Made by a program: the position numbers and the translations under genes
DNA from: Bacteroidaceae bacterium
Lineage (GTDB): Bacteria > Bacteroidota > Bacteroidia > Bacteroidales > Bacteroidaceae
Length of the DNA stretch: 54,324 bases
Assembly: GCA_017617335.1 (NCBI GenBank)
Contig: JAFZWK010000027.1
Coordinates: 1-54,324 of the forward strand
Direction: 5' to 3'
Notes under the pieces: model-generated
Seen by the model: the letters and a program-made list of their open reading frames with translations, nothing else
Database searches by the model: none
What the model was told of the DNA's origin: nothing
In this document: piece by piece, positions 511 to 35,780 of the stretch
How the letters are laid out: every line of letters starts with the position of its first letter
Position numbering within the stretch: position 1 is the first letter of the stretch

Positions 511-516
511 GGAAAG

Positions 517-1787: not shown

Positions 1788-1804
1788 CACTTTTCAAGAC
1801 TTTT

Positions 1805-5821: not shown

Positions 5822-5831
5822 AAGTGCGGAA

Positions 5832-7013: not shown

Positions 7014-7046
7014 TTCGTTTTTATCTTGTTTCTTTATTTTTTTCTG

Positions 7047-7054
7047 CAAAATTA
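7047..7054 (-). promoter_or_regulatory. -7 element before the AICAR transformylase gene
   Basis: TAATTTTG on the minus strand matches TAnnTTTG and is 33 bases before the chosen ATG. Its position argues against the upstream start at 7148. Confidence 0.55.
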
Positions 7055-7200
7055 CGAATAAGCAAGAGATAAGCCAAATAAAACCTGCACAAAGTTCATT
7101 AAGAATCTTAAAACGGCGAGTCGATGGCTCCAGACAGCAGAGTATCATATTGCTCCATAAAAAAACTCCCTAAAAGATTCTGTTTCTTAGATTTTATAAT

Positions 7201-7208
7201 TACTTTTG
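7201..7208 (+). promoter_or_regulatory. -7 element before the beta-helix gene
   Basis: TACTTTTG matches TAnnTTTG, 62 bases before the ATG at 7271. The -33 region has no clear TTG, so the match is moderate. Confidence 0.45.
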
Positions 7209-7270
7209 CCATGTCATTAAAGTTTAACGCTTTCTAACACCCTGGGCGGGAATAAATACAACAATGAAAA

Positions 7271-9805: not shown

Positions 9806-9825
9806 TAAATAAACTGACAACGGAT

Positions 9826-19090: not shown

Positions 19091-19102
19091 AAGTGTGAAC
19101 AT

Positions 19103-20167: not shown

Positions 20168-20186
20168 TTTGTAATCTGTTTGATAA

Positions 20187-21704
20187 GTGGACTCATCTCA
20201 ACGGATCATAGTAAATTCATTTGCACAGCAGATAAGGTCTGTTCTGAATGTTTGTCTTTCACTGTATTCCACCCGAATTGTTCTTGAAGCGTTGGGACAG
20301 AGTGATTATGGAATCTATTCGTTGATAGGTGGAGTTGTAGCAATGCTTTCTTTTTTGACAAACGCTATGGTGGTGACTACCCAGCGGCAACTGTCTTTCT
20401 GTCATGGCAAGGGCTTGTTGAAAGATGTTCGTCGCATGTTCTCAAACAGCTTGTTCCTTCACTTTATTCTTGGTGTGGCACTGGCTGTGGTTTTGTCCGC
20501 TGTCGGTCCAATGCTATTTAATGGATTCCTGAAAATTGATGCCTCGCGGATGGAAACATCTAAGATAGTCTACTCGTTAGTTGTCCTGTCTTTGCTCATT
20601 ACATTTCTCACAGCTCCTTTTCGGGCTTTGTTCATCGCCAGAGAGAACATTGTCTACATATCATGTGTTGATGTTATTGATGGCATTATCAAACTTATTG
20701 CAGCCATTTGGCTATTACACTGCCCTTTCGATCGTCTCATTGCCTATGCTTGTATTATTGTCGGCATCATGGCTTTTAATTTCATTGCGCTGGCAGCATG
20801 GGCACAAGTCAAATTCGAGGAAAGTACCCTATTACCCAGACGAAAAGACATCAATCGTCAGTCTCTTCATGAACTGACAGACTTCGCCGGATGGACTGTC
20901 TATAGCCAACTTTGCGTCATAGGTCGTACACAGGGTGTAGCTATTTTATTGAACCGTTTCTTTGGTACTATAATTAACGCTGCATACGGCATTGCCCAGC
21001 ATGTGTTTGGTTCTATTCAGTTTATTGCAATTTCAGTAACCAACGCTATGGCTCCTCAGATTATGAAAGCAGAAGGAAGTGGGGACCGTACGCGTATGCT
21101 TTATTTGTCTGAACTTTTGAGCAAATATGCGGTCTTGCTGTTATCTACGGTAACTATTCCGTTGGTTTTTGAGATGCCTTCTGTATTGAATCTTTGGTTG
21201 GGCGACATACCTGCAAATACTGTACTCTTGTGTCGTTTCATTCTTCTGACGGCATTGTGTGATCAGATTACCATTGGCCTTGGAACTGCCAATCAGGCAA
21301 TCGGACGTATTAGAAATTACTCAATCGTTGTAAATACCATCAAGATACTGACATTGCCGGTCTTCTGGCTCTGTATTCATCTGGATTATTCTTTGGGAAC
21401 AGCCATGTGTGTATATTTAGGTTTCGAGTTACTTTGTGCGCTGATACGCCTGCCTTTCCTTAAATACACGGCAGGGCTTTCCATACGCCATTTTTTCAAA
21501 CACGTTTTTGCCCGAATTTCCCTGCCTCTATTTGCTATAACGGTTGCATGTTGGCTTACCTCTGTCTTTATCCATACGTCTTTCCGTTTTTTGCTTACGG
21601 GCATCGTAGCATTGTTGGCTGCCATTCCTTCTGTTTGGTGTTTTGCCTTGGAGCCCACAGAACGTGTTGTGTTGTTGAGAATGATGAAAAGGAAAAAGGA
21701 CTGA
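20187..21704 (+). CDS. Wzx-type polysaccharide flippase
   Basis: A 505-residue MATE-like/MVF superfamily protein with about 12-14 hydrophobic helices. The N-terminal region (RIIVNSFAQQIRSVLNVCLS, then YSTRIVLEALGQSDYGIYSL) is typical of O-antigen and capsule flippases. It would move lipid-linked repeat units across the inner membrane. The start is GTG at 20187, 19 bases after the Wzz stop; no ATG near the N-terminus gives a better start. Confidence 0.88.
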   Translation: MDSSQRIIVNSFAQQIRSVLNVCLSLYSTRIVLEALGQSDYGIYSLIGGVVAMLSFLTNAMVVTTQRQLSFCHGKGLLKDVRRMFSNSLFLHFILGVALAVVLSAVGPMLFNGFLKIDASRMETSKIVYSLVVLSLLITFLTAPFRALFIARENIVYISCVDVIDGIIKLIAAIWLLHCPFDRLIAYACIIVGIMAFNFIALAAWAQVKFEESTLLPRRKDINRQSLHELTDFAGWTVYSQLCVIGRTQGVAILLNRFFGTIINAAYGIAQHVFGSIQFIAISVTNAMAPQIMKAEGSGDRTRMLYLSELLSKYAVLLLSTVTIPLVFEMPSVLNLWLGDIPANTVLLCRFILLTALCDQITIGLGTANQAIGRIRNYSIVVNTIKILTLPVFWLCIHLDYSLGTAMCVYLGFELLCALIRLPFLKYTAGLSIRHFFKHVFARISLPLFAITVACWLTSVFIHTSFRFLLTGIVALLAAIPSVWCFALEPTERVVLLRMMKRKKD

Positions 21705-21706
21705 AT

Positions 21707-22645
21707 ATGGTGAAAGAAAGCATCTTTGGGTTTCCCTTATTCAAGCGGCTGCGACATGCGCTACGTCCTGTAAGAACTTCCTATGAGTTGCTTGTGGGCA
21801 AATTGTTCCCGAAACGGTTGGCGTCTATACGCTATAAACAAGTATACGGAGTTGCCATTAACTGGAGTAATCCTAAGAACATCGACGAAAAGATCAACTG
21901 GTTAAAATTCTATTCCGACACGTCACGTTGGACACTTCTGGCTGACAAATATAGGGTACGACAGTATGTTGAGGAGTGTGGATTTGGCGATATGCTTGTT
22001 AAGCTTTACGGTAAGTGGGAACAGGCTGCCGATATAGATTGGGAAAGTCTTCCCAATCAGTTTGTAATGAAGACTAATCATGGCAGTGGCGATGTTTTGA
22101 TATGCCATGACAAGCAATTGACAGATCGTAAGTACTGGACGAAGATGTTTGATAAGTGGTTGCATACAGACTTTGGAAGTATGATGGGTGAGCCTCACTA
22201 TAAGTACATCAAACCCTGCGTCATTGCAGAGGAACTGCTTGATGCTGACAAGCAACCTATCGCTTCATCGTCGCTGATTGATTATAAAATATGGGCATTC
22301 AATGGCAAGCCTTCCTATATATGGTGTTGCCTCAACAGAACACCGAAGTCTGTTGAAGTCATTACTTACGATATGCAATGGAACCCACATCCCGAATTCT
22401 CTATTGATACCCCACACTATATACTGACTGATAAGAGAATTCCTCGTCCTAATTCATTGGAAAGAATGCTGTATGCGGCTTCTGTGCTGTCGAAAGGATT
22501 TCCACAGGTGCGTGTGGACTTCTATGAAGTTGACGGCAAGGCCTACTTCGGCGAGATGACGTTCACGTCATCATCTGGGGTCAACTATTTTTACACAGAT
22601 GAATTCAGAAACCATTTGGGAGATCATTGTCAACTGCTTTTATGA
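21707..22645 (+). CDS. ATP-grasp TupA-like glycosyltransferase-associated protein, copy 1
   Basis: A 312-residue protein of the ATP-grasp TupA family, common in polysaccharide clusters and thought to link amino acids or other groups to sugars. Key segments are NPKNIDEKINWLKFYSD, TLLADKYRVRQYV, QFVMKTNHGSGD (nucleotide loop), VIAEELL and PQVRVDFYEVDGKAYFGE, a metal-binding region. The frame is open well upstream, but ATG 21707 follows an AAGGAAAAAGGA stretch, is two bases after the Wzx stop and gives the family N-terminus. The gene ends in an ATGA overlap with the next. It is paralogous to 31312-32217. Confidence 0.85.
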   Translation: MVKESIFGFPLFKRLRHALRPVRTSYELLVGKLFPKRLASIRYKQVYGVAINWSNPKNIDEKINWLKFYSDTSRWTLLADKYRVRQYVEECGFGDMLVKLYGKWEQAADIDWESLPNQFVMKTNHGSGDVLICHDKQLTDRKYWTKMFDKWLHTDFGSMMGEPHYKYIKPCVIAEELLDADKQPIASSSLIDYKIWAFNGKPSYIWCCLNRTPKSVEVITYDMQWNPHPEFSIDTPHYILTDKRIPRPNSLERMLYAASVLSKGFPQVRVDFYEVDGKAYFGEMTFTSSSGVNYFYTDEFRNHLGDHCQLLL

Positions 22646-23898
22646 GATTGAATTTAAGATTTGATATTTTAAATCTGAAGAGGATCCTATGGATATTGGT
22701 TCCCATCATGGTGTTTCATGCTTCATTGACACTGAATGTCTATGAGAGTTTAATGCCCCTGTCCTATCTGTTGCAGTTTCTTGATATCCTTTTTTTCCTT
22801 TTCTCTCTCTATCTTTTTATAGTCCATCCTTCTTTAAGTCAGTTTGATTTCCTGATGGTTGGATACATTATCGTGATGATAGGAATTACTGCAATAGCAT
22901 CAACGGACTTGAAGAATATGATTTATGTAGCTGTAGATGTTCTCTTCATGGTCACATTATTCAACTATTGTAAAGATGGGAAGATGCCACTTCTGTTGAA
23001 AATACTTTCTCTTTCTCTATCTGTATGTGTTTACATTAATTTTATAGTATTGATTACGGACACATCATGGATGATAGTAGATGATAAGAATATTTTTGGA
23101 TATATTCTTGGAGATAATTATAATCAAGTGGTATCTCGCATTATTCCAGCCTTGCTTTGCAGCGTTTTGACTTCAAAATATGGATTTCTTTGGAAGGTCA
23201 ATAGTGTTGCTACTTTTCTGACAGGATTTATAGGAGTTTTATTTCTTGGATCAATGACTGCAACTTCAGGATTGGTGTTGTTTGTGCTTTTCTGTGCGGT
23301 ACCCAGTCTCTCTCTTAAGCGAATTGGAGTTTGGGGGATGTTCTTGTTTTATGTTTTTTTTCAGATTGTTGTTTGTTTTAATGGTACAGGTTTACAGAAT
23401 AATGATTTGGCAGTCTACATTATTGTTGATGTCTTAGGAAAAGATATTACTTTTACACACAGGACAGAATTGTGGGACGCTGCAATACACGTCTTTACAG
23501 AATCTCCTTTGTTTGGTAACGGTTATGTTGATAGAGATTGGTATATGAGTAATATGAGTAGTTTGGCAATGGGACCCCATAATCTCATTTTTTATATCAT
23601 GATATCCGGTGGCATTGTTCTCTTGGCTGCTTTTCTTTGTATGTTTGCCATGGCAATAACCAGATGTGTGAAATCTACAGAGGTTTCTCGCCGCAAATTG
23701 AATTTGTTGTTTGGGCAGGCAGTCTTTTTGTTCATGCAGACGATGGAATACTATCCGTTCTTTTTTAACTTCCTCCTTCTTAATTTGGTATATTATTATG
23801 AGGAGTTTGGTATGGAGAAAAAAGTGCATCTTGCAGTTTCTTCCCCAGTAAGCAACCCCATTAATGATGATTATGGAAAAACAGACACAACCGAATAA
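22642..23898 (+). CDS. O-antigen polymerase-like membrane protein (Wzy)
   Basis: A 418-residue membrane protein with about ten hydrophobic helices. The motif LFGNGYVDRDW followed by GPHNLIFYIMISGG is characteristic of the Wzy/O-antigen ligase family, which polymerises lipid-linked repeat units in the periplasm. ATG 22642 overlaps the TGA of the preceding gene (ATGA), so I prefer it to the TTG five codons earlier. Composition is AT-rich, as is usual for this gene type. Confidence 0.85.
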   Translation: MRLNLRFDILNLKRILWILVPIMVFHASLTLNVYESLMPLSYLLQFLDILFFLFSLYLFIVHPSLSQFDFLMVGYIIVMIGITAIASTDLKNMIYVAVDVLFMVTLFNYCKDGKMPLLLKILSLSLSVCVYINFIVLITDTSWMIVDDKNIFGYILGDNYNQVVSRIIPALLCSVLTSKYGFLWKVNSVATFLTGFIGVLFLGSMTATSGLVLFVLFCAVPSLSLKRIGVWGMFLFYVFFQIVVCFNGTGLQNNDLAVYIIVDVLGKDITFTHRTELWDAAIHVFTESPLFGNGYVDRDWYMSNMSSLAMGPHNLIFYIMISGGIVLLAAFLCMFAMAITRCVKSTEVSRRKLNLLFGQAVFLFMQTMEYYPFFFNFLLLNLVYYYEEFGMEKKVHLAVSSPVSNPINDDYGKTDTTE

Positions 23899-25078
23899 AA
23901 TTGCCATTATTGCAGTTACCTTCAATCGCATAGATAGTTTGCAACGTCTTCTCGCGTCTTTGGAACATGCGCATTATACAGAAGAGGTTTCTTTGATTAT
24001 CAGTGTAGATAAGAGTGACATTGACGAGGTTGCATCTTTTGCCAATCAGTATTGTTGGCCTCATGGAGAGAAAATGGTTGTCTTGCAACCCCGCAATTTG
24101 GGCCTTCGAAGTCACATGTTATCTTTGGGACAACATTTTTCAAAATTCGATGCTTTGGTGGTCTTGGAAGATGATGTCTCTGTTTCTCCCGCATTTTATG
24201 ATTATGTTAAAGCCTGTTTCTCTCGATATTCCGATGACGATCGTATTGCCGGAATAAGTCTTTATGCGCATGCTGTTTGCAATCAGAACGACCTTCCTTT
24301 CATCCCTGCAAAATCAGAATTTGATGTTTATTTTATGCATTATGCCGCCTCGTGGGGTGAGGTGTGGATGAAAAGGCAATGGTGTGCATTTTATGAATGG
24401 TATCAAAGTCACAGTGACGAGTTTTATTTGGACAATCTCCCGCCTTGCATTAATCGATGGCCTAAAACTTCCTGGTTAAAGTACCACATACGCTATTGTA
24501 TAGAGACGCAAAAGTACTTCGTTTACCCATATTCCAGTTATTCAACGAACAACGCTGATTCGGGAGTACATTTTCACTATTCAGACACTTTGTACCAATC
24601 TGTATTACAGGTAACTCCCCAAACAGCGTTTCGATTGCCTTCCTTGGATGAGTCTATCATCCGATATGACGGTTTCTTTGAACCAGAATATTTAGCTCCA
24701 TATCTTTTCGTGGACGATAAAGATTTATGTGTAGATTTATATGGAATGAAGCATCCCAATCTGTATCGACGTTATCTCTTGTCCACCCAAAGTCATCCTT
24801 ATCGCATAGTTCGGTCTTTTGCATTGGAATTGCGTCCAATAGAGATGAATATTATCCAGAACCAGCAAGGTCAAGGTATTTGGCTTTATGACACAACGGA
24901 ATCTGCTATTGCCCCCAAGGTTGATGCATATCAAAGATATTATTACTTGTATGGTAAAGCTTTTTATCGAGCAATTTTTATGCTGGGAGGATGCAAAATC
25001 ATCAAATTACTATTGGATTTGATTGCTTATAAATTAAATAAAGTATTTCATTGGCATTTGCCATGCCATCTTAATTGA
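23864..25078 (+). CDS. GT-A glycosyltransferase (family 2 or GNT-I-like)
   Basis: A 404-residue protein with the GT-A fold: IAIIAVTFNRIDSLQRLLAS at the N-terminus, SLIISVDKSD, and the metal-binding LEDDV at about residue 101. ASWGEVWMKRQW is a probable acceptor region. It is slightly longer than simple family 2 enzymes. The first ATG (23864) overlaps the Wzy gene by 35 bases; ATGs at 23867 and 23873 are alternatives. It is the last gene before the inverted-repeat element. Confidence 0.85.
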   Translation: MMIMEKQTQPNKIAIIAVTFNRIDSLQRLLASLEHAHYTEEVSLIISVDKSDIDEVASFANQYCWPHGEKMVVLQPRNLGLRSHMLSLGQHFSKFDALVVLEDDVSVSPAFYDYVKACFSRYSDDDRIAGISLYAHAVCNQNDLPFIPAKSEFDVYFMHYAASWGEVWMKRQWCAFYEWYQSHSDEFYLDNLPPCINRWPKTSWLKYHIRYCIETQKYFVYPYSSYSTNNADSGVHFHYSDTLYQSVLQVTPQTAFRLPSLDESIIRYDGFFEPEYLAPYLFVDDKDLCVDLYGMKHPNLYRRYLLSTQSHPYRIVRSFALELRPIEMNIIQNQQGQGIWLYDTTESAIAPKVDAYQRYYYLYGKAFYRAIFMLGGCKIIKLLLDLIAYKLNKVFHWHLPCHLN

Positions 25079-25151
25079 GGAATGATTTCCTAAACATTCT
25101 ATCTCTCTCTTAACCGTCTCCGACTAATGTCTTTCGCTTTACTGTAATGAG

Positions 25152-25275
25152 TATACTATACTTTTTGGGCCACCAAACTGCAAAACTGCCACCTTTGATG
25201 TGTAATATGCTTATTTCCTGCACGTTAGAAGGGTGACAGTTTGGGTGTAGGCAGATTAAAAGGGTGTAGGTTTTA
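25152..25275 (+). repeat. Left inverted repeat of a 3.0-kb element
   Basis: This end aligns without gaps to the reverse complement of 28055-28178. Shared blocks are TATACTAT at the outer end, CTGCAAAACTGCCACC (25178-25193), TGCTTATTT, GTTA, GGTGACAGTTT (25232-25242) and GGTGTAGG. From 25178 inward about 69 of 97 positions agree by hand count. The inner end overlaps the last codons and stop of the VirE-like gene. Confidence 0.85.
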
Positions 25276-27379
25276 CATAGAATTCGCTGCCTTTTCTGGA
25301 TCGTCGGTAGGGAATTTCCTGATGTCCGCGTAAAGAACGTCCAAAACTGTTGGCGGCAGGTACCTGAAAGGCGGAACCGGCACGTTGCTTGATGGCGAGC
25401 AGGATTTCGGTGGTCGTCATCCATTGGCCATCCTTGGCATTGCCCGTGGGAATTGTGAAGTACTGATAGAAGAATATCTCGGCGCTGCTCAGCATCTGGA
25501 AGCGGCTGTTGTGTTCCATGATAGCCTGCGTCTCCGCATCGTCAAACCAGTAGCGGGTTCCAGCGTTGAGTTCGGCTTGTGCCTGCGCATAGAGTTGGGC
25601 GTAGTTGGGAGTTTGGCTGACATTGATGTTGCCTGTGACCTGCACGCCAAGGAAACGGCGAGAACCGGTGGGGTCGGCAAGCACGTCAGAGATGTTTGTC
25701 GTGGCGATGAACGAAGCCAGTCGGGGTACCTCCTCTGTGTGGGAGGCATAGGGGCGTTTCACCTTTACCGATGGAAGTTGCAGGATGTTCTTCAGGAACC
25801 CTTGTTGCTTCTGAGGCGAGATGCGATTGAACTCGTCGAGATTGATGAGCAGCATCTGCGACATGGCCAGATGTACGGGTCGTTCCTCGGAGAGCGACAG
25901 GTTGTCGGTGTAGCCCCATGCGCGAAGTTCAGGAGGCAGCAGCGAGCGGCAGAAAGCACTCTTGTGCATGCCTTGTCGCGAGATGAGCAACGGGACGATA
26001 GCATTTCCGTAGCGTCGATCGCGCCCCTTCCATTGCGCCACCATTGCCAGGAACCACGTGTGGAACCAGTCGGCCCACTGCGACGCGTTGTCAGTGGGCA
26101 CGGTGGCAGCGAGGGCGCGGATATGATCGCGTCCGTCCCACGTACTGCACTCGCGGAACAGGTAGTCGTCAATGGGGTCGAAATCTCGGATGCGTGTGGA
26201 GTGAACATAGCGCTTCACGTCGCGGTTCCATACGTTAAGTCCCGCTATCTGTAAATCGGTGGTGAACGTGTTGATGACCTTGTCCGTGACGGGACGCCAC
26301 GGCGTGATCCATGTGTGGTTGGCGCGATATTCTGTGTATCCCATTACGGTGTTGTATCGGAATACGTACCGGTTCTCCATGCGTCGGATGACTTGTTGCA
26401 TCAGCGATTCTTTCAGTTCGAGTGGTGGCTGCTGTCGTCGTCTGGCGTTTTCTTCATCATATACAGCGCTGACGAGCGTGCGCACGAAATCCTCCGTCAA
26501 CCCTGGCTTGTCCTTGAAGATCAAGTGTCGCCACAGGTGGCAAACCGCTTCTTCCTCTGGCCACCCCATTCCGTAGAGCTCTGTGGCCATGCCTGTGATG
26601 AAATCCTTGAACCAAGTGTTGTCTTGATGTTTGGGAGGACTGATGAGTGCCATCACTTTCCGCGCTGCCTCGTCGTATGCACGTTCGTAGTTTTGATAGG
26701 CTGTCATGTCGATTTCTTCGAAGTTGCGTTGCTCTGGCAGGGCGAGCAGATGGGCATCGGCATCATCATTGTCTGTAGCGAAGGTCGCACTGTCTGTGAT
26801 GCGGAGTGGTACAGCGGCGGTGTTCGTGAGCGGTTGCTCATCAAGCGGTAATAAGAAGAAGTGGCGCAGGGAGGGTATCATGCGTGTGACATGAACGGGC
26901 AGGAGCGCATCGTAGATGGGCACCACACTATGGTAGGCATGAGCATAGAACGTCTCGACATCCTGTTCTTCGACAGGTAGCGAGCCATCGGGGCGCGCCA
27001 CGCTGACAAGGATGATTACCTCTGTGCCTGTAGCTCCTATGAAGGTGGCAAACGTCGAAGGCATTGCCATGGCAGCTTGTTTCACGTCGTTACAGAGTGT
27101 GTCGCTCATAAGTTGCCGTACTTCCAGGACGACGAGGCCATTGAAACGGGCAATACCCAAGGCTCCATTTTCCTGACGGCGAAGCTCTGCGGCGGCATAT
27201 ACGTGAGGAATCTCGCTATAGCGGCGATAGTGTTCGGCCCGTTCTGGTGTGGTCTTGTTGCGGAAAAGACCGATGAGGGAATTGTTGGCATCCGTGCCGA
27301 TGCGCTCGAAAAATTTGGTTGCCTCCCACTGTTTGAAGTGTAGGTTGCCTTTGTCGTTTTTGATGGTTGAGAAACGCAT
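25256..27379 (-). CDS. VirE_N / VirE-type P-loop primase-helicase-like protein
   Basis: A 707-residue protein of the Bacteroidetes BT4734/VirE group. Residues about 10-165 match the VirE_N region, related to archaeo-eukaryotic primases; the acidic pair expected after the hydrophobic strand appears as LVVLEVRQL, so activity may be lost. Residues about 380-600 are the VirE P-loop domain: ISRQGMHKSAF (Walker A, K473), LLINLDEF (Walker B, D515-E516) and DPTGSRRF (arginine finger). A DUF3874-like tail follows. It would handle nucleic acid, perhaps as a replication helicase. ATG 27379 is preferred to the in-frame start at 27490 because MRFSTIKNDKG is the expected N-terminus. Its last codons lie in the left inverted repeat. 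Confidence 0.85.
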   Translation of the reverse strand: MRFSTIKNDKGNLHFKQWEATKFFERIGTDANNSLIGLFRNKTTPERAEHYRRYSEIPHVYAAAELRRQENGALGIARFNGLVVLEVRQLMSDTLCNDVKQAAMAMPSTFATFIGATGTEVIILVSVARPDGSLPVEEQDVETFYAHAYHSVVPIYDALLPVHVTRMIPSLRHFFLLPLDEQPLTNTAAVPLRITDSATFATDNDDADAHLLALPEQRNFEEIDMTAYQNYERAYDEAARKVMALISPPKHQDNTWFKDFITGMATELYGMGWPEEEAVCHLWRHLIFKDKPGLTEDFVRTLVSAVYDEENARRRQQPPLELKESLMQQVIRRMENRYVFRYNTVMGYTEYRANHTWITPWRPVTDKVINTFTTDLQIAGLNVWNRDVKRYVHSTRIRDFDPIDDYLFRECSTWDGRDHIRALAATVPTDNASQWADWFHTWFLAMVAQWKGRDRRYGNAIVPLLISRQGMHKSAFCRSLLPPELRAWGYTDNLSLSEERPVHLAMSQMLLINLDEFNRISPQKQQGFLKNILQLPSVKVKRPYASHTEEVPRLASFIATTNISDVLADPTGSRRFLGVQVTGNINVSQTPNYAQLYAQAQAELNAGTRYWFDDAETQAIMEHNSRFQMLSSAEIFFYQYFTIPTGNAKDGQWMTTTEILLAIKQRAGSAFQVPAANSFGRSLRGHQEIPYRRSRKGSEFYVKPTPF

Positions 27380-27461
27380 GATGTAGAATAAAGTGTGTTG
27401 GTTGGAAATTGAATATCGAGGATTGTGTTGAGAGGGTTCTTGCGACGTGTTGTGATGCCGT

Positions 27462-27499
27462 GTCCCACGTGTGGGACGAGAGAATCCCACGTGTGGGAC
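27462..27499. repeat. Two adjacent CCCACGTGTGGG palindromes
   Basis: GTCCCACGTGTGGGAC (27462-27477) and TCCCACGTGTGGGAC (27485-27499) lie seven bases apart between the two genes of the element. Each has 6-7-bp arms around GT. In RNA they could form two small hairpins between the cistrons; in DNA they could be an operator. They are separate from the terminal repeats. Confidence 0.75.
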
Positions 27500-27514
27500 A
27501 TGCTGTTGCTACGC

Positions 27515-27946
27515 TTAGGGAAAGTAGTATTGTTCGTTGTAGTTGTCAAACGGTTCGTCGCTTTGGTAGCCGAAGCTCTGCAGGTGGCTGATGACGCGTG
27601 CCTGCTGTTCGGGCGAAATGTCATATTCGCCATCGCGATACCGGTAGTATTGGGAGCGGCTTCCAAAGATGTCAAACAACCCTCTGCGTATGTCGCTGGC
27701 AAGGCCTGTGCTTCTGGAAGCCAGCAGGCGTTTCATGCCGCGGGCAATCCGGACGGGTTCCTTTGTGGCAAAGAGGCGGCAGCGGTCGTCTTGGCGGGCG
27801 GCGGGAAGGACGGTGGCGTGATGGGTGAGGTCGGGGGGTGCCAGCTGGGCTATGGCATAGCGCAGGCAGTTGTTGGAGAGCGGACAGTCGTGTTGGAAAC
27901 AGATTGCCCAATCATGGGGTGCGAGGGAATATGTCAGGTCTTGCAT
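27515..27946 (-). CDS. Small DUF6078-like protein partnered with VirE
   Basis: A 143-residue protein. The N-terminal part has closely spaced Cys residues (CFQHDCPLSNNCLRY), which may bind metal. The C-terminal part has DIFGSRSQYYRYRDGEYDISPEQQARVISHLQSFGY, which reads like a small helical domain. It resembles the DUF6078 proteins encoded beside VirE-type genes in Bacteroidales; that name is from memory and unverified. It is the first gene after the internal promoter, and the VirE-like gene starts 135 bases later. Confidence 0.6.
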   Translation of the reverse strand: MQDLTYSLAPHDWAICFQHDCPLSNNCLRYAIAQLAPPDLTHHATVLPAARQDDRCRLFATKEPVRIARGMKRLLASRSTGLASDIRRGLFDIFGSRSQYYRYRDGEYDISPEQQARVISHLQSFGYQSDEPFDNYNEQYYFP

Positions 27947-28021
27947 AATGTTGAGTTTTATGGTTAGAAATTCATACTTCGTTTTGATGTTGGCAATGAT
28001 CTTAGCTTGCTAATTGTACTG

Positions 28022-28052
28022 CAAAGATAATAAGAAAATCTTGAATTTGCAA
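28022..28052 (-). promoter_or_regulatory. Promoter of the DUF6078-VirE operon
   Basis: On the minus strand TTG (28052-28050) and TATCTTTG (28029-28022) are separated by 20 bases, an excellent Bacteroidetes promoter. The -33 box directly abuts the inner end of the right inverted repeat, so a protein bound to the repeat could control it. The leader is about 70 bases. Confidence 0.75.
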
Positions 28053-28054
28053 GT

Positions 28055-28178
28055 AAAAACCTACATATTTTTTATTAACCTACACCAAAACTGTCACCTT
28101 GTTAACCTATTATAAATAAGCAAGATAGCATGTATTGGTGGCAGTTTTGCAGTTTTTTCGAGAAAAGTACATAGTATA
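28055..28178 (-). repeat. Right inverted repeat of a 3.0-kb element
   Basis: Reverse complement partner of 25152-25275. It contains AAACTGTCACC (28088-28098), GGTGGCAGTTTTGCAG (28137-28152) and ATAGTATA at the outer end (28171-28178). The two 11-bp motifs face each other with the same 38-base spacing as at the left end. No target-site duplication is visible outside the repeats. The remainder of 27947-28350 holds two promoters and no gene. Confidence 0.85.
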
Positions 28179-28298
28179 AAGAAATGGCTGGATCTTTTGA
28201 CTGACCGAAGTTCTCTCATTTGAGGGAAGCAGTTATTGTGTTAAGAGGGGTATTGCAAAACAAAAGTGTTCTAATTTTGCTGTTTAAAGAAAAAGAAG

Positions 28299-28306
28299 TA
28301 CCTTTG
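28299..28306 (+). promoter_or_regulatory. -7 element of the second capsule segment
   Basis: TACCTTTG with a TTTTG 19 bases upstream matches the Bacteroidetes promoter. It lies 120 bases outside the right inverted repeat and 44 bases before the GT4 gene, so the downstream capsule genes do not depend on read-through of the element. Confidence 0.65.
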
Positions 28307-28350
28307 CAGGTCAGTAGATGCTTTTGCTCTACTTTAATTGAATAAATGAC

Positions 28351-29538
28351 ATGAATGTTCTTTTCATCTCTCAATACTATCCGCAAAGCATCGCCAAGAA
28401 ATGCCAGGACATTTCCAAAATTGGTCTTAACTGGGCTGCACACAATCTCTCAAAAGCCATCATTCGTGGATTTGAGGTTTGTCAGCAGGATTTTCATGTA
28501 ATCAACGTGGCTCCCATGAGTTCTTTCCCAGCATTTGCCAAGTCGCCAAGAGTACCTGGATGTGAGGATGACAATGTGCAAAGCTTGCCATACATCAACG
28601 TGGCATATTATAAAAGGAAGGACACATACAGAAAGGTTGTAAATGCTCTATTCTCTTGGTGCAGAAAGACTGAAGGTAAGAAAATAATTTTTTTCTACAA
28701 TTTCAACTATCTGAATGCCATCATTCCAATAAAAGAGGCTTTCCCTGATGTAAAGGCTGTACTGCTTGTTACTGATCTTCCTGAGTACCGAGTGCGTGAG
28801 AATAAATTTCTCAGCCAAATCAATGAATTGATATCTCCAGAGAAGAAAGCGAGAGAGGGAGAGAGATTCAACTATGTGGATGGGTATGTGTTGCTTGCTT
28901 CGAAAATGAGGGAACGCTTGCCAATGGAGGGAAAGCCTTGGTTGCTGATGGAAGGAATCTACAACGATGAGGCTGCATTGGACAAATGCAGCAAAGATCC
29001 GCATAAGGTACTGATGTACACGGGAAATTTGGGAGCTCGCTACGGAATTCGTGTACTTTTGGATGCTTTTCGACTCATAGAGGATAGTGATTACAGACTC
29101 TGGGTTAGAGGAAACGGAGAACTGACATCCCTTGTGAAAGAACGCGCCCAACAAGATTCCCGCATTTTGTATCTTGAACAGATGAGCCGCGAGGAGCTTA
29201 TGAAGAGAGAACAGGGCGCAACGCTGTTGGTCAATCCTGTACTATCCTCTCAGGAATTCACACAATTCTTCTTTCCTTCCAAAACGTTGGAATACATGGC
29301 ATCAGGAACACCGACCCTGGTGGCAAAACTTTCTTGTATACCTTCTGAATATTATGAGCACCTTTTCTTTTTTGAAGAAGAGAGTGCGGAAGGTTTAGCG
29401 GCAGAAATATGCCGTATCTGTGAGATGCCCGAACAGGAACGGAATGATTTGGGACAAAAAGCATCTGCTTTTATCTTGAATAAGAAGTCTCCCAAGGAGC
29501 AGATTTCTCGAGTGATAGAATTCTTTGATTCTTTGTGA
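28351..29538 (+). CDS. Family 4 glycosyltransferase
   Basis: A 395-residue GT-B glycosyltransferase. The N-terminus MNVLFISQYYPQSIAKKCQD is the acceptor-domain start. The C-terminal domain has VLMYTGNLGARYGIRVLLDA, the loop that binds the donor phosphate, and the E-x7-E-type region FFPSKTLEYMASGTP. It would act on the cytoplasmic face of the inner membrane to extend the repeat unit. It begins a second plus-strand segment of the capsule locus with its own promoter. Confidence 0.88.
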   Translation: MNVLFISQYYPQSIAKKCQDISKIGLNWAAHNLSKAIIRGFEVCQQDFHVINVAPMSSFPAFAKSPRVPGCEDDNVQSLPYINVAYYKRKDTYRKVVNALFSWCRKTEGKKIIFFYNFNYLNAIIPIKEAFPDVKAVLLVTDLPEYRVRENKFLSQINELISPEKKAREGERFNYVDGYVLLASKMRERLPMEGKPWLLMEGIYNDEAALDKCSKDPHKVLMYTGNLGARYGIRVLLDAFRLIEDSDYRLWVRGNGELTSLVKERAQQDSRILYLEQMSREELMKREQGATLLVNPVLSSQEFTQFFFPSKTLEYMASGTPTLVAKLSCIPSEYYEHLFFFEEESAEGLAAEICRICEMPEQERNDLGQKASAFILNKKSPKEQISRVIEFFDSL

Positions 29539-29556
29539 TAATGCAACAGGTTTTTT

Positions 29557-30474
29557 ATGGAAAGATGTGATATTGCAGTTATCCTTACATGCTACAACCG
29601 GAAAAACCTTACGGTTGCCTCTTTGAGCAGTCTTTTCCAGGCTCGTACATTATATAATGAGGGTAATGAAAGGCAACTGTTTTTGTCTGTATATCTGACA
29701 GATGATGGATGTATGGATGGTACCGCTGATGCGGTCCTGACAGAGTTCCCAAAGGAAGATATCCACATTGTTCAGGGGACGGGCTCTTTGTATTGGGCTG
29801 GCGGTATGCGATTGGCATGGAAAGAAGCTTTGAAGGATAGAAAAAAATGGGATTTCTATCTTCTGATAAATGATGATACCATCTTATGCTCTGATGCTTT
29901 TGTTGAGTTGTTCCGAACTCATCAGTATGTTATTATGCGTCATCATAATGCCGGTCTATATTGTGGAGCCTGTAGTACTTTTGATGGTACGGCTTTCATC
30001 TTTGGAGGAAAGAAATATAGAAAAGGACTATTGGGAAAGGCGGTTACGGTGGTTCCTGATGGTACTCCTCTCCCATGTTTTATGACATGTGCAAATGTTC
30101 TGATGGTTTCCGATAATGTCTTTGAAACAGTGGGGATGCTTGATGAGTATTATACACATACTAATGCTGATTGGGCGTATGGAATTGAAGCAGTCAGACA
30201 TGGTTTTCCCGTATATGTGACAGGAAAAGTCTGTGGCTTATGTGAAAATGATCATCCCACCGAAATTATGGAAGCAGAGAAAATTATCTCAATGACTTTG
30301 GCTGAACGGAAGGCTTTTTTCAATCATCCCCTAAGAGGTACTAAGGATCGATTATATTTTATGTGGAAATACAATAAAATTCGTTTCTTTGCATTGTTCT
30401 TCGCAAGGAAACTTAATATATATTTCCCTCGGATTTATTATCGATTAGTCCCTTATCGCCCAAGCGAATCATAA
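29557..30474 (+). CDS. Family 2 glycosyltransferase
   Basis: A 305-residue GT-A enzyme. ILTCYNRKNLTVASLSSL at the N-terminus, TDDGCMDGTAD, the metal-binding LLINDDT (about residue 105-111) and NADWAYGIEAVRHGFPVYV match rhamnosyltransferase-like GT2 proteins. It starts 18 bases after the GT4 gene and is the last plus-strand gene of the locus; the GH16 gene converges on it 31 bases further on. Confidence 0.88.
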   Translation: MERCDIAVILTCYNRKNLTVASLSSLFQARTLYNEGNERQLFLSVYLTDDGCMDGTADAVLTEFPKEDIHIVQGTGSLYWAGGMRLAWKEALKDRKKWDFYLLINDDTILCSDAFVELFRTHQYVIMRHHNAGLYCGACSTFDGTAFIFGGKKYRKGLLGKAVTVVPDGTPLPCFMTCANVLMVSDNVFETVGMLDEYYTHTNADWAYGIEAVRHGFPVYVTGKVCGLCENDHPTEIMEAEKIISMTLAERKAFFNHPLRGTKDRLYFMWKYNKIRFFALFFARKLNIYFPRIYYRLVPYRPSES

Positions 30475-30505
30475 AACATCTTCTGGTAAAGGTCTTGGAG
30501 TAGGT

Positions 30506-31315
30506 TTAGCTTCTCTGATACACCCTCACCCAGTCAAAGCGAGTCTCAAAGGTCTTTCTTGTGTTGGGGTAGGGTAGAGCCTTCCAGCGGCCATTGCCCA
30601 CAGCTTGGTTGAGGATGAGGAAAAACGGGTAGTCGAAGGTCCAGACATTTTCCTCAAGCAGTTTCTTGTCGTCAGGCTTTGGATAAATGCCTGTCGTCTC
30701 GCCATCAATGGTCCAAAGTATATAGCCTGGCGTCCATTCTATGCCGTAAACGTGCCACTTGCGTACATCCACGTCCTTGTTGAAACTAGTCTTCAATCCA
30801 TGCTTCGGGTTCTTTTGTGTGTACTGCGAGTGTAGGGTGTGTGATGCTTTTTTCTGGTTGCTGAACACTTCCACGATGTCTATCTCGCCATAGAGGTCGT
30901 CACGCTGGTTGTGTGTCTTGAACATCCATGCGGCGGGAAAATTACCTGGAATGAAATTGGTCTTCATCCGTACCTCAACCTTGCCATATTTGAATTCAAA
31001 CTTGTTCATTGTGTTAACACCGCCAGTCAGCATCTTTGCAGTGTCAGAAGGTTCTGTCTTGTTGGGTACGGCACGGCACACCAAACAGCCGTTCTTGATA
31101 AAAACGACTTTGTCTGACTGGCTGTTCCAGCGTGCCCACTGGCTGGGGTTGCGTTTGGCGCGGTTCCACTTGGTAGGATCAGGTTGACTGCCGTTAGGCA
31201 AGTTGAACTCGTCGCTGAACACTAGTTTCCATTCCGTATTCTGGGCCTTTAACGGAGTGGTGTCAGCTGATAGGAACATCAGTCCAATAAACATTAAAAG
31301 TATATTGCTTTTCAT
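30506..31315 (-). CDS. Secreted GH16 glycanase
   Basis: A 269-residue glycoside hydrolase family 16 enzyme (laminarinase/beta-glucanase type). It has a signal peptide ending near AQN and a single GH16 domain with the catalytic motif E-I-D-I-V-E (E144, D146, E149) and the preceding PAAWMF segment. All catalytic residues are present. These enzymes cut beta-1,3 or beta-1,4 linkages in glucans or galactans. Its ATG overlaps the TGA of the TupA-like gene by four bases, tying it to polysaccharide synthesis; it may trim or release the locus product, though a role in nutrition cannot be excluded. Confidence 0.9.
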   Translation of the reverse strand: MKSNILLMFIGLMFLSADTTPLKAQNTEWKLVFSDEFNLPNGSQPDPTKWNRAKRNPSQWARWNSQSDKVVFIKNGCLVCRAVPNKTEPSDTAKMLTGGVNTMNKFEFKYGKVEVRMKTNFIPGNFPAAWMFKTHNQRDDLYGEIDIVEVFSNQKKASHTLHSQYTQKNPKHGLKTSFNKDVDVRKWHVYGIEWTPGYILWTIDGETTGIYPKPDDKKLLEENVWTFDYPFFLILNQAVGNGRWKALPYPNTRKTFETRFDWVRVYQRS

Positions 31316-32217
31316 GATTCTATACTAGGGATAGTTACTCGTTTTCCCATCTCAAGCAGATATTCTGGTTTATAGTAGTCCATCATTCCCCCCAGAGAGG
31401 TAAAAGTCAACTCTCCAAAATAAGCTTTCCCGTTTACCTCGTAAAGGTCGACTCTTACTTGCGGAAATGGCTTTGACAAGGTTGCGGCGATGCTAATCAT
31501 CTCGGCAAGGCATTGGGGACGAGGTAAGGCCTTGGAGGGTATTGTTACATGAGACGAAGCCTTCATGTTTTCCGAATGGCGGTTCCATCTCAAATCATAA
31601 CAATCTACAGAGGTATGATAGCCGTCGGCCTGACGTTCCGAACAAGTAAGGAAAGAATATGGCTCACCATGGAAGCACCACAGCTTGTAGTCCACGAGCG
31701 ATGTCTCGCCATCGCCACACGGCAATAGCTCCTCTGCCAGAATCATAGGCTTGATGTCACGGTATTGTGGTTCGCCAGACAAGGCACCAATGTGCTTTGT
31801 GTCAAGCCAGCTCTGAAGACGAACACGTAGTTCTTTCCAATCCTCATCGCTCATCTTCTCCTTGTCTATCTTCACGTTGGTCCCTTTTCCATCGCCATTA
31901 TTGGCTTTCAGGATGAATTGCTGAGGCAGTTCGTCAAAAGGAATGTCGTCTACTTTTTCCCATGCTCCATACAACGGAATGAGAATTGACTCCAGTCCAC
32001 ATGCTTTTACATATTCATGTACTCGATATTTATCAGCAAGTTCCGTCCATTTCGAGGTGTCAGTAAATAGTTTCAGATAAAGAATCTTTTCGTTTAAATC
32101 CTTTGGATGTTTGAAATTGGGCAAACGACCGAAACGCAAGAAATAGCGTAACTTTACTGTAGTGACAGGGAATTTCTCTAATATTATTGCAGCAAAGTGT
32201 TGTATAACTTTATTCAT
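31312..32217 (-). CDS. ATP-grasp TupA-like protein, copy 2
   Basis: A 301-residue paralogue of the protein at 21707-22645, sharing DLNEKILYLKLFTD, ELADKYRVHEYV, QFILKANNGDGKG, MILAEELL and PQVRVDLYEVNGKAYFGEL. It is a likely ATP-dependent ligase acting on a sugar intermediate. I start at ATG 32217; an upstream in-frame TTG at 32256 would overlap the preceding gene. The GH16 gene overlaps its stop by four bases. Confidence 0.85.
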   Translation of the reverse strand: MNKVIQHFAAIILEKFPVTTVKLRYFLRFGRLPNFKHPKDLNEKILYLKLFTDTSKWTELADKYRVHEYVKACGLESILIPLYGAWEKVDDIPFDELPQQFILKANNGDGKGTNVKIDKEKMSDEDWKELRVRLQSWLDTKHIGALSGEPQYRDIKPMILAEELLPCGDGETSLVDYKLWCFHGEPYSFLTCSERQADGYHTSVDCYDLRWNRHSENMKASSHVTIPSKALPRPQCLAEMISIAATLSKPFPQVRVDLYEVNGKAYFGELTFTSLGGMMDYYKPEYLLEMGKRVTIPSIES

Positions 32218-32236
32218 TAATGAAAAGGTAGAAGGT

Positions 32237-33022
32237 TTACCTGCGGATGTTTGCAATCCAGTTAATTGCCCTCTTGGTCAGGTAGGTGGGCATAAAGATG
32301 AAAAAGAGGTATAGATAGGAGAAGGGTACTGAGTATCCGAAAACGAACTGATACACTTTAGCGTTGTATTTGACGAGCTTTAGCTTCTTGCTACTGATGC
32401 CCTCAGGAGTCCTGCGATAGATGGCCAAGGGTTCCACCATACCGTATGCTGTCTTGCACTGCTTCATAATGGTCAGGAAGAGAGCCCAGTCTTGACGTTT
32501 ACGGATGGTTGGCATGAAGAATTTGCCATATTTCGTAGTATCGTAGATGGCGGTCAGGCAACCTATCTTGTTGTCATGCTTCAGGTCTGTCAGACTTAGA
32601 CGAGAAGGAGCAATCACGATTCCTTTATGCTCATCGTCAGGACCGCAAATCAGGTAGCTGGAGAAACAAAGACAGCATTGATGCTTCTGCATATAGGCAA
32701 CCTGCTTTGCCAGCTTTTCGGGGAACCAGCGATCGTCGCTGTCGCAGAAGGCAATGTATCGTCCACGAGCTTCTTTTATGCTATTGTTGCGGGCATATCC
32801 AGGACCATTGTTCTCAGGCATTAGGAAAATGCGCACGCGCTTATCTCGCTCTGCATAGCTGTTCAACAATGCAAGGGTCTCTGGATCGGTAGAATGGTCG
32901 TCGGTGATGATGAGTTCCAGATTCTTGTAAGTTTGACTCAGTACACTGTCTATGCTGGCGCCAATATATCTACTGGCGTTGTAGGATGGCATAATAACAG
33001 ATACTAGGTCTTTTTTCCTCAT
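32237..33022 (-). CDS. Family 2 glycosyltransferase
   Basis: A 261-residue GT-A enzyme with a complete set of motifs: VSVIMPSYNASRYIGASIDS, ITDDHSTDPET, GPGYARNNSIKEARGRYIAF and the metal-binding CDSDDRWFPEKL (about residues 93-104). The end has a hydrophobic stretch (FSYLYLFFIFMPTYL) that could anchor it to the membrane. It is first in a minus-strand trio with the TupA-like and GH16 genes. No clear TAnnTTTG is seen in the 91-base gap upstream. Confidence 0.88.
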   Translation of the reverse strand: MRKKDLVSVIMPSYNASRYIGASIDSVLSQTYKNLELIITDDHSTDPETLALLNSYAERDKRVRIFLMPENNGPGYARNNSIKEARGRYIAFCDSDDRWFPEKLAKQVAYMQKHQCCLCFSSYLICGPDDEHKGIVIAPSRLSLTDLKHDNKIGCLTAIYDTTKYGKFFMPTIRKRQDWALFLTIMKQCKTAYGMVEPLAIYRRTPEGISSKKLKLVKYNAKVYQFVFGYSVPFSYLYLFFIFMPTYLTKRAINWIANIRR

Positions 33023-33113
33023 TGCGCGTGTTTTATATTAAAAACGTGTAAAGCTGGGAAAAATTGTGTAGGTGGGCAAGAAAATTTTATATTTCTTTGT
33101 TAAATGATTGAAA

Positions 33114-35780
33114 TCATTCTTGTGACGTCGTTTTCATGTGAATATCCCGTTGAGGGAATGGAATCTCTATGTGGTTATCATTCAGTGTGTTGTAGATAAC
33201 TTCCTTGATGCGGGCCGTCAACATGATCTTTTCCTCCACCAGCATCCAGATGCAGACTAACAGGTCGACTGAACTCTCTCCAAAGTCTGAGAACATGATG
33301 TTGACAGGAATGTTCACGTTAGTGATGTACTTGCCAGCTGCGTTGCGTTCCTTGCAGATGGGAGTAATGGCATCTGTGAGCAGTTGGCGTACTTCTTGGA
33401 TGTTTGATCCGTATGCCACTCCGATGGGAATCTTGATGAGTTCGTAGCGATGGTTCCTGGTCAGGTTCTTGAAATTCTTACTGAAGAGCGCACTATTGAG
33501 GAATGAGATGACGGAACCATCGGCCGTAACAATCTGTGTACTCTGATAGGTGATGCTTTCCACCTTGCCGCTGATGCCGTCGCATACGATATAGTCGCCC
33601 ACGTGCAGACGACCTGCCATTAGGTTGATTCCGTAGAAGAAGTTCTCAAGGATGCTTTGCATTGCGAATCCCAAACCTGTTGCCAGACCTGCACTCACGA
33701 TAGAGATGCCGCTCTTGGGAACCTCCAGAATGACGAGTGAAATGATGATGTAGAGACCCCAGCAGATGATGCCTATGATGTTGCGTGCCAATGTCAGATT
33801 GTAGGTTTGATTATCCTTGATGGTCTTGCGGCGGAAGTAACTGTAGAAACTGCAGATGATGTAGTTGAGGTAACGGAAAATGAACCACATGGCCACCACT
33901 ACACAAATACGGTAGAGCGAGATGCGTATCAGATTGGTCTGATGCACGATGTCCATGAAGAAGATACGGTGACAGATACTCGTCATCTCGAAGGTCTTGG
34001 CAGCCCAGAAAATGCTCACCAATACTGAAGCGACCGCCATGATGGGAACTAACGTCCGATTGAAGAGGTCGTAGAACCAAGTTTGGGTGACATATTCCCC
34101 ACGTCGCATCTTGTCCATCATCAATTTCACGTCTGCGCTGATGTCCTTTCCTGCCTCAGCCTTCTTCTTCAGGTCAGGTCGCACGTGATAAATAAGGTAC
34201 CGCTTCTCGAACATTTCCATTAGGTCATACATGCACGTAATGGTCATGATGGCAGCCAACTGGAAGGTCCACCATACCATGATCTGCACGGCTAATAAGC
34301 AGTAGCCAGCCCAAGCGGCAACGGTGGAGATGATCATGGCAGCTGTAGTCAGATGGCTGTACACAACGTCCAGCAAGGGCAAACCTTCTCGATGCCGCCT
34401 CGACAGCACCAGTTGCCAGATAGTGAAGCCTAAGAGGATGGGTGGAAAGAGCAGATTCACGAGGGCGTTGGGAATCAGTACGATGCGGAACAGGATGACG
34501 ATGAAAGCCAGCAGCATCAGAGGCATGTAGATGATGGCAGCGTGACGCATCTGCTCGCCTTTCAGTCGTATATAGAGGCTCAAGAAGATGACTTCCAGCA
34601 GCCAAGCTATGTTGATGATGAGTCGAGTGCCCATCTGGATAAAGTTGCGGTCTGTAAAGGTGCGGACAATCATCACGATGATGGCAAAGAGAGCAATGCC
34701 TACCACGTTGTTGAGCATTTCGCGCTTCAGCTTGAAGTCCTTGCTTCTCCACTTCTTAGGCAGGAACCATCTCAGGGCGACGTAACTCAGCACCCATGCG
34801 ATGGCGAGATACATCACGAGGAACACGCTGATGAATAGCACAGAAGCACCGCGCCACTCCGAGAAGATTGCGCTGTGTCCTGCAAAAGGCTTGTACTTGT
34901 TTTCCCAGGCACGTTCTGCCCTGCGGAGTTGTATGGGTAGCCTGAACAGCATGGAGAAGTAGTTTTCGCTTCCGTTCTTGAAGATATTGTCCTGCAGGAT
35001 CTTGTATCGACTTTGGGCGAACGAGTTGAGTTCCAGAACTTTAGTCCTTACGCTCTTGTAGTAAGAGTTTTCTGCCTCCATGCTCTCCAGGAAACACTGC
35101 AGATTGTCTCGAATGCCTTCTGCATACTTCAGGCAAGCAAAGCGATCCTCCAACTGCTGACCACTCAGATATAGAGGCATGTTAGGTTCTCCTTCCTCTA
35201 TTTCCTCCTCGTTGACATTCTCGTGGGGCAGAGGGGGCATCATGGCGGCAGTCAGGGTGCTGTCGATTGGCTTTGAGATGCCCTTCTTGTAGGATAGAGA
35301 ATCGATGGCTTGCAGCAGAATGCTGTCGCTGGCGCTGATCACGCTGTCATTATCAGCTATGACAGGAGGCATGCTCTTTAGCGAGACGATCAGGGAATCG
35401 TAGCGCTCCAGCTCAATCTTTATTCCGGCAATGATCTTGTCGTATTGGTTCATCTTGCCGTTTTGGTTGTTCAGCTCCATGTACAGATTAATCGCCTGCT
35501 GGCAAGCATAAGCCATATCGAAGGTGTTCTCTGTCGACTGCGAGTAGAGCATCAGGCTTATCTGTTCACATTTGTGCATGTAGCTTACCAGTCGCTGATG
35601 CTGTGCCGTACCCTGCTGCTCATACATCGCCATGAATTGCTTTTGCTTCTCGTGGTTCATCTGTAACTCAGCCCTCAGCACTCCCAGCGTTCTGGCCAGA
35701 TCCTTCTCTCTCAGCACCGCTTGGACTTGTACCACACACAGTATCGTCAGCAGTATCGCCACTATCTTTCTTGTCTTCAT
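33114..35780 (-). CDS. MscS/MscK-type mechanosensitive channel
   Basis: An 888-residue protein with a signal peptide, a long periplasmic coiled-coil region (about 25-290), about ten transmembrane helices (about 315-690) and an MscS domain. The pore helix GLATGLGFAMQSILENFFYG and the following AGRLHVGDYIV are well conserved. Such channels open under membrane tension and release solutes on osmotic downshift. The large N-terminal part resembles MscK-like proteins. A promoter lies in the divergent gap with 35916. Confidence 0.88.
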   Translation of the reverse strand: MKTRKIVAILLTILCVVQVQAVLREKDLARTLGVLRAELQMNHEKQKQFMAMYEQQGTAQHQRLVSYMHKCEQISLMLYSQSTENTFDMAYACQQAINLYMELNNQNGKMNQYDKIIAGIKIELERYDSLIVSLKSMPPVIADNDSVISASDSILLQAIDSLSYKKGISKPIDSTLTAAMMPPLPHENVNEEEIEEGEPNMPLYLSGQQLEDRFACLKYAEGIRDNLQCFLESMEAENSYYKSVRTKVLELNSFAQSRYKILQDNIFKNGSENYFSMLFRLPIQLRRAERAWENKYKPFAGHSAIFSEWRGASVLFISVFLVMYLAIAWVLSYVALRWFLPKKWRSKDFKLKREMLNNVVGIALFAIIVMIVRTFTDRNFIQMGTRLIINIAWLLEVIFLSLYIRLKGEQMRHAAIIYMPLMLLAFIVILFRIVLIPNALVNLLFPPILLGFTIWQLVLSRRHREGLPLLDVVYSHLTTAAMIISTVAAWAGYCLLAVQIMVWWTFQLAAIMTITCMYDLMEMFEKRYLIYHVRPDLKKKAEAGKDISADVKLMMDKMRRGEYVTQTWFYDLFNRTLVPIMAVASVLVSIFWAAKTFEMTSICHRIFFMDIVHQTNLIRISLYRICVVVAMWFIFRYLNYIICSFYSYFRRKTIKDNQTYNLTLARNIIGIICWGLYIIISLVILEVPKSGISIVSAGLATGLGFAMQSILENFFYGINLMAGRLHVGDYIVCDGISGKVESITYQSTQIVTADGSVISFLNSALFSKNFKNLTRNHRYELIKIPIGVAYGSNIQEVRQLLTDAITPICKERNAAGKYITNVNIPVNIMFSDFGESSVDLLVCIWMLVEEKIMLTARIKEVIYNTLNDNHIEIPFPQRDIHMKTTSQE

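Follow-up and report, generated by a model that had tools for sequence, protein, structure and literature searches.

How does a unit with long inverted ends and only two genes come to lie in a bacterial genome, and what, if anything, moves it? The question is raised by a 3.0-kb unit at positions 25152-28178 of the window, by which we mean the whole stretch of 54,324 nucleotides analysed here (contig JAFZWK010000027.1 of assembly GCA_017617335.1, from a Bacteroidaceae bacterium). A preliminary description, made from the letters alone, had proposed a mobile or invertible unit at this place, within what it took to be a capsule locus. Compared with its relatives, the window unit is an insertion, and the chances are about even that it represents a complete member of a family of small Bacteroidales mobile elements, which we name VapE elements after the helicase gene, vapE, that they carry. 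Their mobility is well supported by comparison, and three observations bear out the mobile unit first proposed: a colinear locus in another genome (G054; loci are labelled L, genomes G) that is empty of it, the same anatomy at 39 of 85 VapE loci, and copies of the ends without the gene. VapE elements seem to form a hitherto undescribed family of mobile DNA, equipped with a DNA-unwinding enzyme and with no recognisable cutting-and-pasting enzyme. The features of the window unit are:

25152-25275, plus strand (outer to inner along plus): left inverted end, 3' of vapE; ungapped identity of 85/124 to the right end, and the same position relative to vapE in relatives.
25178-25193, plus strand: left-end copy of the outer repeat pair CTGCAAAACTGCCACC; both ends carry it unchanged, with 0 copies expected.
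25232-25239, plus strand: inner iteron GGTGACAG of the left end, from the sequence; it reads GGTGGCAG in relatives.
25244-25251, plus strand: inner iteron GGTGTAGG of the left end, from the sequence and the alignment.
25256-27379, minus strand: vapE, encoding a 707-amino-acid PrimPol-like (BT4734-like_N)/VapE helicase/DUF3874 protein, by Pfam, the PADLOC PrimPol model and the PDB relative 7pds; stop codon at 25256-25258.
25263-25270, plus strand: innermost iteron GGTGTAGG of the left end, over the last vapE codons, from the sequence; TGTAGG is invariant in 20 ends.
27463-27498, no strand: pair of TCCCANNNNTGGGA palindromes at 22-bp spacing in the gap that separates the DUF6078 gene from vapE; the sole such pair in the window's own genome.
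27515-27946, minus strand: DUF6078 gene, 143 amino acids (PF19555, E-value 1.2e-32).
28055-28178, minus strand (outer to inner along minus): right inverted end, 5' of the DUF6078 gene; ungapped identity of 85/124 to the left end.
28079-28086, minus strand: inner iteron GGTGTAGG of the right end, from the sequence and the alignment.
28091-28098, minus strand: inner iteron GGTGACAG of the right end, from the sequence and the alignment.
28137-28152, minus strand: outer repeat pair CTGCAAAACTGCCACC of the right end; exact in both ends, from the alignment of 20 ends.

Insertion is most directly visible in G054, where locus L114 is colinear with the window on both sides of the unit: window positions 18524-25114 correspond to L114 positions 3-6598 (81% identity), and 28257-33530 to 6731-12001 (82%). 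Between these matched flanks lie 132 bp in G054 and 3142 bp in the window, and the G054 counterparts of both flanking genes are open frames. The search for such empty sites used queries in which the 170 bp on either side of an element were fused, for 8 elements, and covered 139 genomes of the genus. An invertible unit, the other possibility first raised, found no such backing; no inverted copy was seen, and no invertase was recognised among the two window proteins. The unit also differs from its surroundings in base composition, with a G+C content of 52.6% against 38.3% and 42.8% in the 3-kb flanks, and both its genes lie on the minus strand, with the neighbouring long open reading frames (ORFs) on the plus strand. 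Transcription against the neighbours, as originally described, agrees with the strands. The internal promoter claimed with it is unconfirmed because its basis is consensus scans only (7 promoter-like sites against 2.5 expected).

The inverted ends proved exact to the base as first described. Positions 25178-25274 and the reverse complement of 28056-28152 agree without gaps at 69 of 97 positions, where the best of 20,000 shuffles of an arm reached 42; over the full 124 bases there are 85 ungapped identities, and the tips of both ends are TATACTAT. A gapped local alignment of the two ends reaches a score of 102; none of 200 shuffles exceeded 37. CTGCAAAACTGCCACC occurs in the window as two exact copies, one per end (0 expected), and is constant, save for its final base in one end, across the 20 ends of the window subfamily, which align gap-free over 96 bases (three further ends of differing length are omitted from this alignment). 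The innermost left-end repeat overlaps the final codons of vapE. A terminal hairpin was considered as well. Single-strand folding of relatives' ends was stable in four of four cases (z of -9.3, -7.5, -5.1 and -3.3), but the two window ends fold no better than shuffles (z of -0.5 and -0.3) and the named hairpin structure shows no covariation over the 20 ends (80.8% paired against 80.4% in shuffles; 37-47% for slid versions), leaving the hairpin unsupported and the dyad of repeats alone retained. Inspection of the window subfamily had also suggested that the outermost tip is conserved as TACT(A/T), but this was dropped, the tip being present in 10 of 78 ends against 13.2 in shuffles (39 elements). 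Rfam gave no match.

To see how general this layout is, 89 distinct VapE loci were assembled, with 12 duplicates removed, and the 85 with enough flanking sequence were scored by pairing the 2500 bp upstream of vapE with the 250 bp downstream and taking their best inverted match, with 3000 mismatched pairs as the null. End pairs beyond the 99% level of the mismatched pairs were found at 26 of the 60 loci whose protein is full-length, at 13 of the 24 with the VapE part only (mostly about 400 amino acids, two longer) and 0 of 1 other locus, which makes up the 39 of 85. The preliminary description had suggested looking for ends at a constant distance from virE-type genes, and the downstream end does start 0-124 bp past the vapE stop (500-bp search, strong-pair loci), with the upstream end 69-1680 bp from vapE and the end-bearing units measuring 1478-3314 bp (median 2833). 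The ends are arrays of short repeats, some about 11 bp apart, whose letters (among them GGTGGCAG, GTTGCAGAT, GACCTAAC, CATATACC, ACCTCC and GTGAGGGATG) vary between elements and agree within one. Strongly diverged vapE genes are each bounded by ends that match one another.

vapE is also the one gene common to the units. In the smallest (L096, L093, L097 and L103; 1.48-1.73 kb) no other ORF longer than 69 amino acids lies between the left end and vapE, and L081, which has the PrimPol part, carries none beside vapE; such single-gene members therefore have no room for a transposase or integrase gene. Neither enzyme was recognised in the window unit, going by its ORF list and family scans of its two proteins, and across 43 elements, with tips uncertain by some bases, the longest direct flank match averaged 5.72 bases against 5.27 in mismatched pairs. 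The lack of transposase, integrase and visible target duplication claimed for the unit thus stands. The preliminary description had the unit depend on its own nucleic-acid enzyme or on a host recombinase; of these, the tie of the ends to vapE favours a role for VapE.

The ends also occur without the gene. In the 139 genomes, the left end of the window matched in 13, its own included, where just the two window copies appear; per-genome counts from this search, which scored up to 6 candidates in each genome, are to be read as at least the number given. Three short copies retain both ends, namely L120 (about 0.6 kb), L123 (about 0.5 kb) and L128 (about 0.6 kb), the last with the final ~50 codons of vapE and the first two with no detected remnant. 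Their hosts (G119, G136 and G138, respectively) also hold full elements of the same subfamily (L020, L004 and L003), the genomes having been equated with the contigs of these loci by contig comparison that included sequence. A second subfamily repeats the pattern in G016, where L134 (0.67 kb, with ~20 codons from near the vapE end) occurs with a full relative, L137, to whose ends its own are 88-94% identical. Other copies consist of one end followed by a palindrome array (L121, L122, L126, L129, L130 and L132, by eye), and further single ends have no vapE match within the 2-4 kb fetched (L127, L131, L135, L136 and L138-L144), several of them at contig edges. In Bacteroides finegoldii TSDC17.2-1.1, three end-plus-array units (L150, L151 and L152) occur beside a full element, L062, and a full element of this strain lies in NZ_OY725909 at about 37.4-40.0 kb; miaA and similar genes suggest that these records, filed as plasmids, are pieces of chromosome. 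The one-ended copies of the window's genus and those of B. finegoldii have this combination of end and array in common, which would fit a mobile unit whose second boundary is the array.

Full elements of matching kind accompany gene-less copies in G119, G136, G138, G134, G016 and B. finegoldii, and none was seen in G019, G127 and G003. Such company is expected if the ends are acted on in trans. Ends occurring without the genes, as an ordinary intergenic repeat would, had been named as an outcome that would speak against a mobile unit; they do occur, but as paired internal-deletion derivatives or end-plus-array units, and on this comparison we read them as non-autonomous copies rather than as an ordinary repeat. 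A search with the ends of L087 was swamped by a TTTAATGTTTAA-type stretch and was used solely to note a second copy in G058. No empty site was found for L128, or for L062 in the plasmid collection, and a precise joint sought from the flanking repeat of L123 was not decisive.

What the enzyme might do is suggested by its domains. Family-library scans covered the DUF6078 and VapE proteins, which the other ORFs of the unit overlap, and agree with the gene pair first described, a small DUF6078-like protein and a VirE_N/P-loop protein. The vapE product matches BT4734-like_N (PF08800, formerly named VirE_N) at 60.7 bits against a gathering threshold of 22.4, and VapE-like_dom (PF05272) at 99.8 against 25 bits, with DUF3874 as a further Pfam domain. 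The PADLOC PrimPol model matches its N-terminal part, and the rest matches PHROGs families of phage DNA helicases and primases. Its nearest solved relative is 7pds, 'Similar to D. nodosus vapE' (E-value 2e-18), and relatives at 33-35% identity bear the NCBI name BT4734/BF3469 family protein. The helicase residues G470, K473, E516, R574 and R575 are invariant across 47 aligned VapE sequences, the first two belonging to the Walker A motif and E516 to Walker B. No nuclease family was recognised by the family libraries in the two window proteins, nor any HUH family among their Pfam matches. The vapE product is single-copy in its own genome (62% complete), and 69 of 101 genomes in a sample of the genus have a match to the protein.

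In passages of PMC5862659, BT4734-like proteins are described as an archaeo-eukaryotic primase family placed outside any clade, with hhhDhD/E as primase motif I. Acidic residues stand at both places of this motif in 4 of 64 aligned rows (L044, L069, L074 and L082), and the primase part is missing altogether from the VapE-only members. In the window the motif reads VVLEVRQ, and because this gives E-V-R in place of hhhDhD/E, the primase part of the window protein may be inactive.

The downstream end offers a comparison with the Staphylococcus aureus pathogenicity islands (SaPIs), whose Rep helicases, according to passages of PMC7581432, recognise iterons directly downstream of their own gene; the same passages have Cch2 bind its origin through its C-terminal domain. 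Because the downstream end of VapE elements sits where the SaPI Rep iterons sit, VapE replication from the ends suggests itself as the motor. VapE would then be a self-loading replication helicase that recognises the end iterons, as SaPI Rep does with the iterons beside its gene, and would copy end-bearing DNA with the help of its own degenerate primase-like domain; members lacking the domain would draw on a host primase, and gene-less derivatives would be copied in trans. If the unit were freed as a circle, its two ends would meet to form one origin with iterons on both sides. Joining of the copy to the chromosome would fall to host repair or to a recombinase supplied in trans, a step that the lack of target duplication would suit. 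That VapE is an iteron-binding replication helicase mobilising DNA with its end repeats is, we judge, an evenly balanced proposition. More tentative, and on balance doubtful, is the wider proposal of a new class of mobile element with a replication helicase as its sole enzyme, in which matched end iterons would be bound, the element and its gene-less derivatives copied, and the copies joined without a transposase, integrase or target duplication of the element's own; the repeat code would diversify with each VapE while the layout is kept, and the 1.5-kb members would consist of two ends and one helicase gene.

Several findings weigh against the helicase proposal and the family built on it. The case is one of sequence comparison, in which movement, DNA binding, replication and a circular form are proposals. 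A significant end pair was absent from 46 of the 85 loci, including 16 tested loci adjacent in the tree listing (one of which, L023, scored higher under laxer settings), and two close homologues, L002 and L006, likewise show no clear pair; virE loci without these ends, which the preliminary description regarded as contrary to a mobile unit, are therefore common, though 39 loci do carry a significant pair. The empty site looked for in relatives was found for 1 of 15 elements, none appearing among the matches shown for the 7 remaining elements of the first batch or for a further 7; missed sites are likely because the searches score few candidates per genome. Even in G054, intergenic divergence hides the exact joint. 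Similarity of the ends tracks overall protein similarity (Spearman 0.36-0.41) with no domain prominent, and partial correlations gave no answer as to which VapE domain would read the repeats. NCBIfam returned no match for the vapE product, the window's motif I departs from the published primase form, the palindrome array also occurs far from ends, and most VapE loci come from metagenome-assembled genomes or from genomes without a species name. Finally, a transposase acting in trans might account for the movement.

That last possibility is the strongest of the rivals, although an unlikely one: the ends would delimit units that are not autonomous and depend for their movement on a transposase or integrase gene located elsewhere, with vapE as a passenger or as a helper, for example in replication or copy-number gain. 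Elements mobilised in trans typically show just such inverted ends and gene-less copies, and the two window proteins offer no recognised nuclease of their own. Against this, vapE is the single gene that the units have in common, the downstream end follows close behind its stop in the loci with a strong pair, very divergent vapE genes each come with their own matched ends, and the 43 elements gave no target duplication; no dedicated search for transposase genes between such ends was made.

A minimal phage satellite is quite improbable. Here VapE and the iterons would amplify the unit upon infection by a helper, which would supply integration and packaging, much as the SaPI satellite replication module pairs a Rep helicase with adjacent iterons (passages of PMC7581432). 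VapE homologues do occur in 164 phage records, including Bacteroides and Cellulophaga phages and faecal virome contigs, yet genes for an integrase, for packaging or for a capsid are missing from the window unit, judged by its ORF list and Pfam on its two proteins, and the gene-less copies dispersed in genomes resemble transposition. A search of viral contigs for patterns combining the end motif with the protein found none, and the motif itself gave a single exact match there, at the estimated chance level, in a methyltransferase-like gene. This match (L133, IMGVR_UViG_3300032246_002821) was taken as chance and a phage origin of the ends set aside; the 21 bases at L133 positions 3418-3438 match the end core and encode GGSFAVF. 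Very improbable, lastly, is a static locus whose ends are regulatory sites around a vapE operon, spread only with larger DNA by homologous recombination. The many pairless loci, the palindrome array upstream of vapE and the single window copy in a 62% complete genome speak for it; against it, the part missing from G054 is the unit between the ends, and several genomes hold scattered ends and copies with internal deletions.

Returning to the proposed helicase-driven VapE element, its place among known systems can be set out. The window protein belongs to the BT4734-like/VapE family, both Pfam domains exceeding their curated cut-offs. In the passages and listings available from its sources, this family is known as proteins, and inverted iteron ends, gene-less copies and a transposon-like unit go unmentioned there. 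The literature searched held no account of inverted ends or gene-less copies around VirE/VapE genes, a silence that is weak evidence of novelty because preprints and most subscription journals lay outside the search.

As far as the passages on them go, the replication modules of SaPIs and of the staphylococcal cassette chromosome mec (SCCmec), with Rep and Cch2, share an initiator-type helicase gene and iterons directly downstream of it; 7pds, the nearest solved relative by sequence, links VapE to this group. In VapE elements, unlike these modules, the iteron cluster is doubled, inverted and forms the ends of the unit, and no integrase or Ccr-type recombinase was seen. The integrase and helper-interference genes of SaPIs and phage-inducible chromosomal islands (PICIs) were likewise not seen in the two-gene window unit (attachment, or att, sites as such were not searched). 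Insertion sequences and miniature inverted-repeat transposable elements (MITEs) resemble VapE elements in their inverted ends, their size of 1.5-3.3 kb and the coexistence of full and internally deleted copies, whereas the VapE units examined lack a transposase or target duplication and have iteron-array ends and a palindrome array. By analogy only, parvovirus-like Rep and inverted terminal repeat (ITR) systems, such as that of adeno-associated virus, also combine palindromic, repeat-bearing termini with a neighbouring initiator that has a helicase domain; in the VapE element no nicking domain was found, and the window ends do not fold beyond the level of shuffles. Helitrons, IS91 and IS200/IS605, the HUH elements, insert without target duplication, and Helitrons include a helicase, but the ends of VapE elements are long inverted repeats and Pfam gave no HUH match.

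VapE/VirE-type genes are usually annotated merely as virulence-associated. If the end-bounded form is mobile, many such genes in Bacteroidales would be explained, together with an unnamed class of dispersed repeats in Bacteroidales genomes. The further question is whether transposition can be driven by a replication helicase and iterons without a nuclease of the element's own, for which single-gene members with matched ends would make a simple two-component system to rebuild in a commensal kept in the laboratory.

The palindromes between the two window genes have counterparts in other letters. Arrays with 22-bp spacing lie upstream of vapE at 11 of the 39 loci that bear ends, where shuffles lead one to expect 0.0, and at 5 of the 46 others (0.05 expected); palindromes are retained in the short copies L120, L123 and L128, and CACGGCCGTG-type arrays occur in Bacteroides. 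TCCCANNNNTGGGA arrays at this spacing are also dispersed in 17 of 139 genomes (the window's own, G016, G119, G134 and 13 others), with up to 16 pairs per genome and often away from ends. This partly element-independent dispersal rules out the array as an exclusive part of the VapE element, and one such palindrome pattern had 0 matches in viral contigs. Together with the DUF6078 gene, the array is probably regulatory.

Some relatives differ in their setting. In L097 a DUF6078-like frame appears, by eye, to lie just outside the right end, whereas in the window it is inside the unit. L022 (Prevotella vespertina) and L024 (P. denticola) have DUF6078-like and VapE-only genes beside a DinD-like gene, as named by eye; a short pair of matched ends is present, and the vapE frame of L024 is split. 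Related elements at L005 6229-8766 and L020 6502-10142 stand beside the same chloride-channel-like gene in two genomes, while the genes on their other side differ, being AbiE-like or AAA/DUF4435-like by eye, which points to a possible hotspot for defence-type genes.

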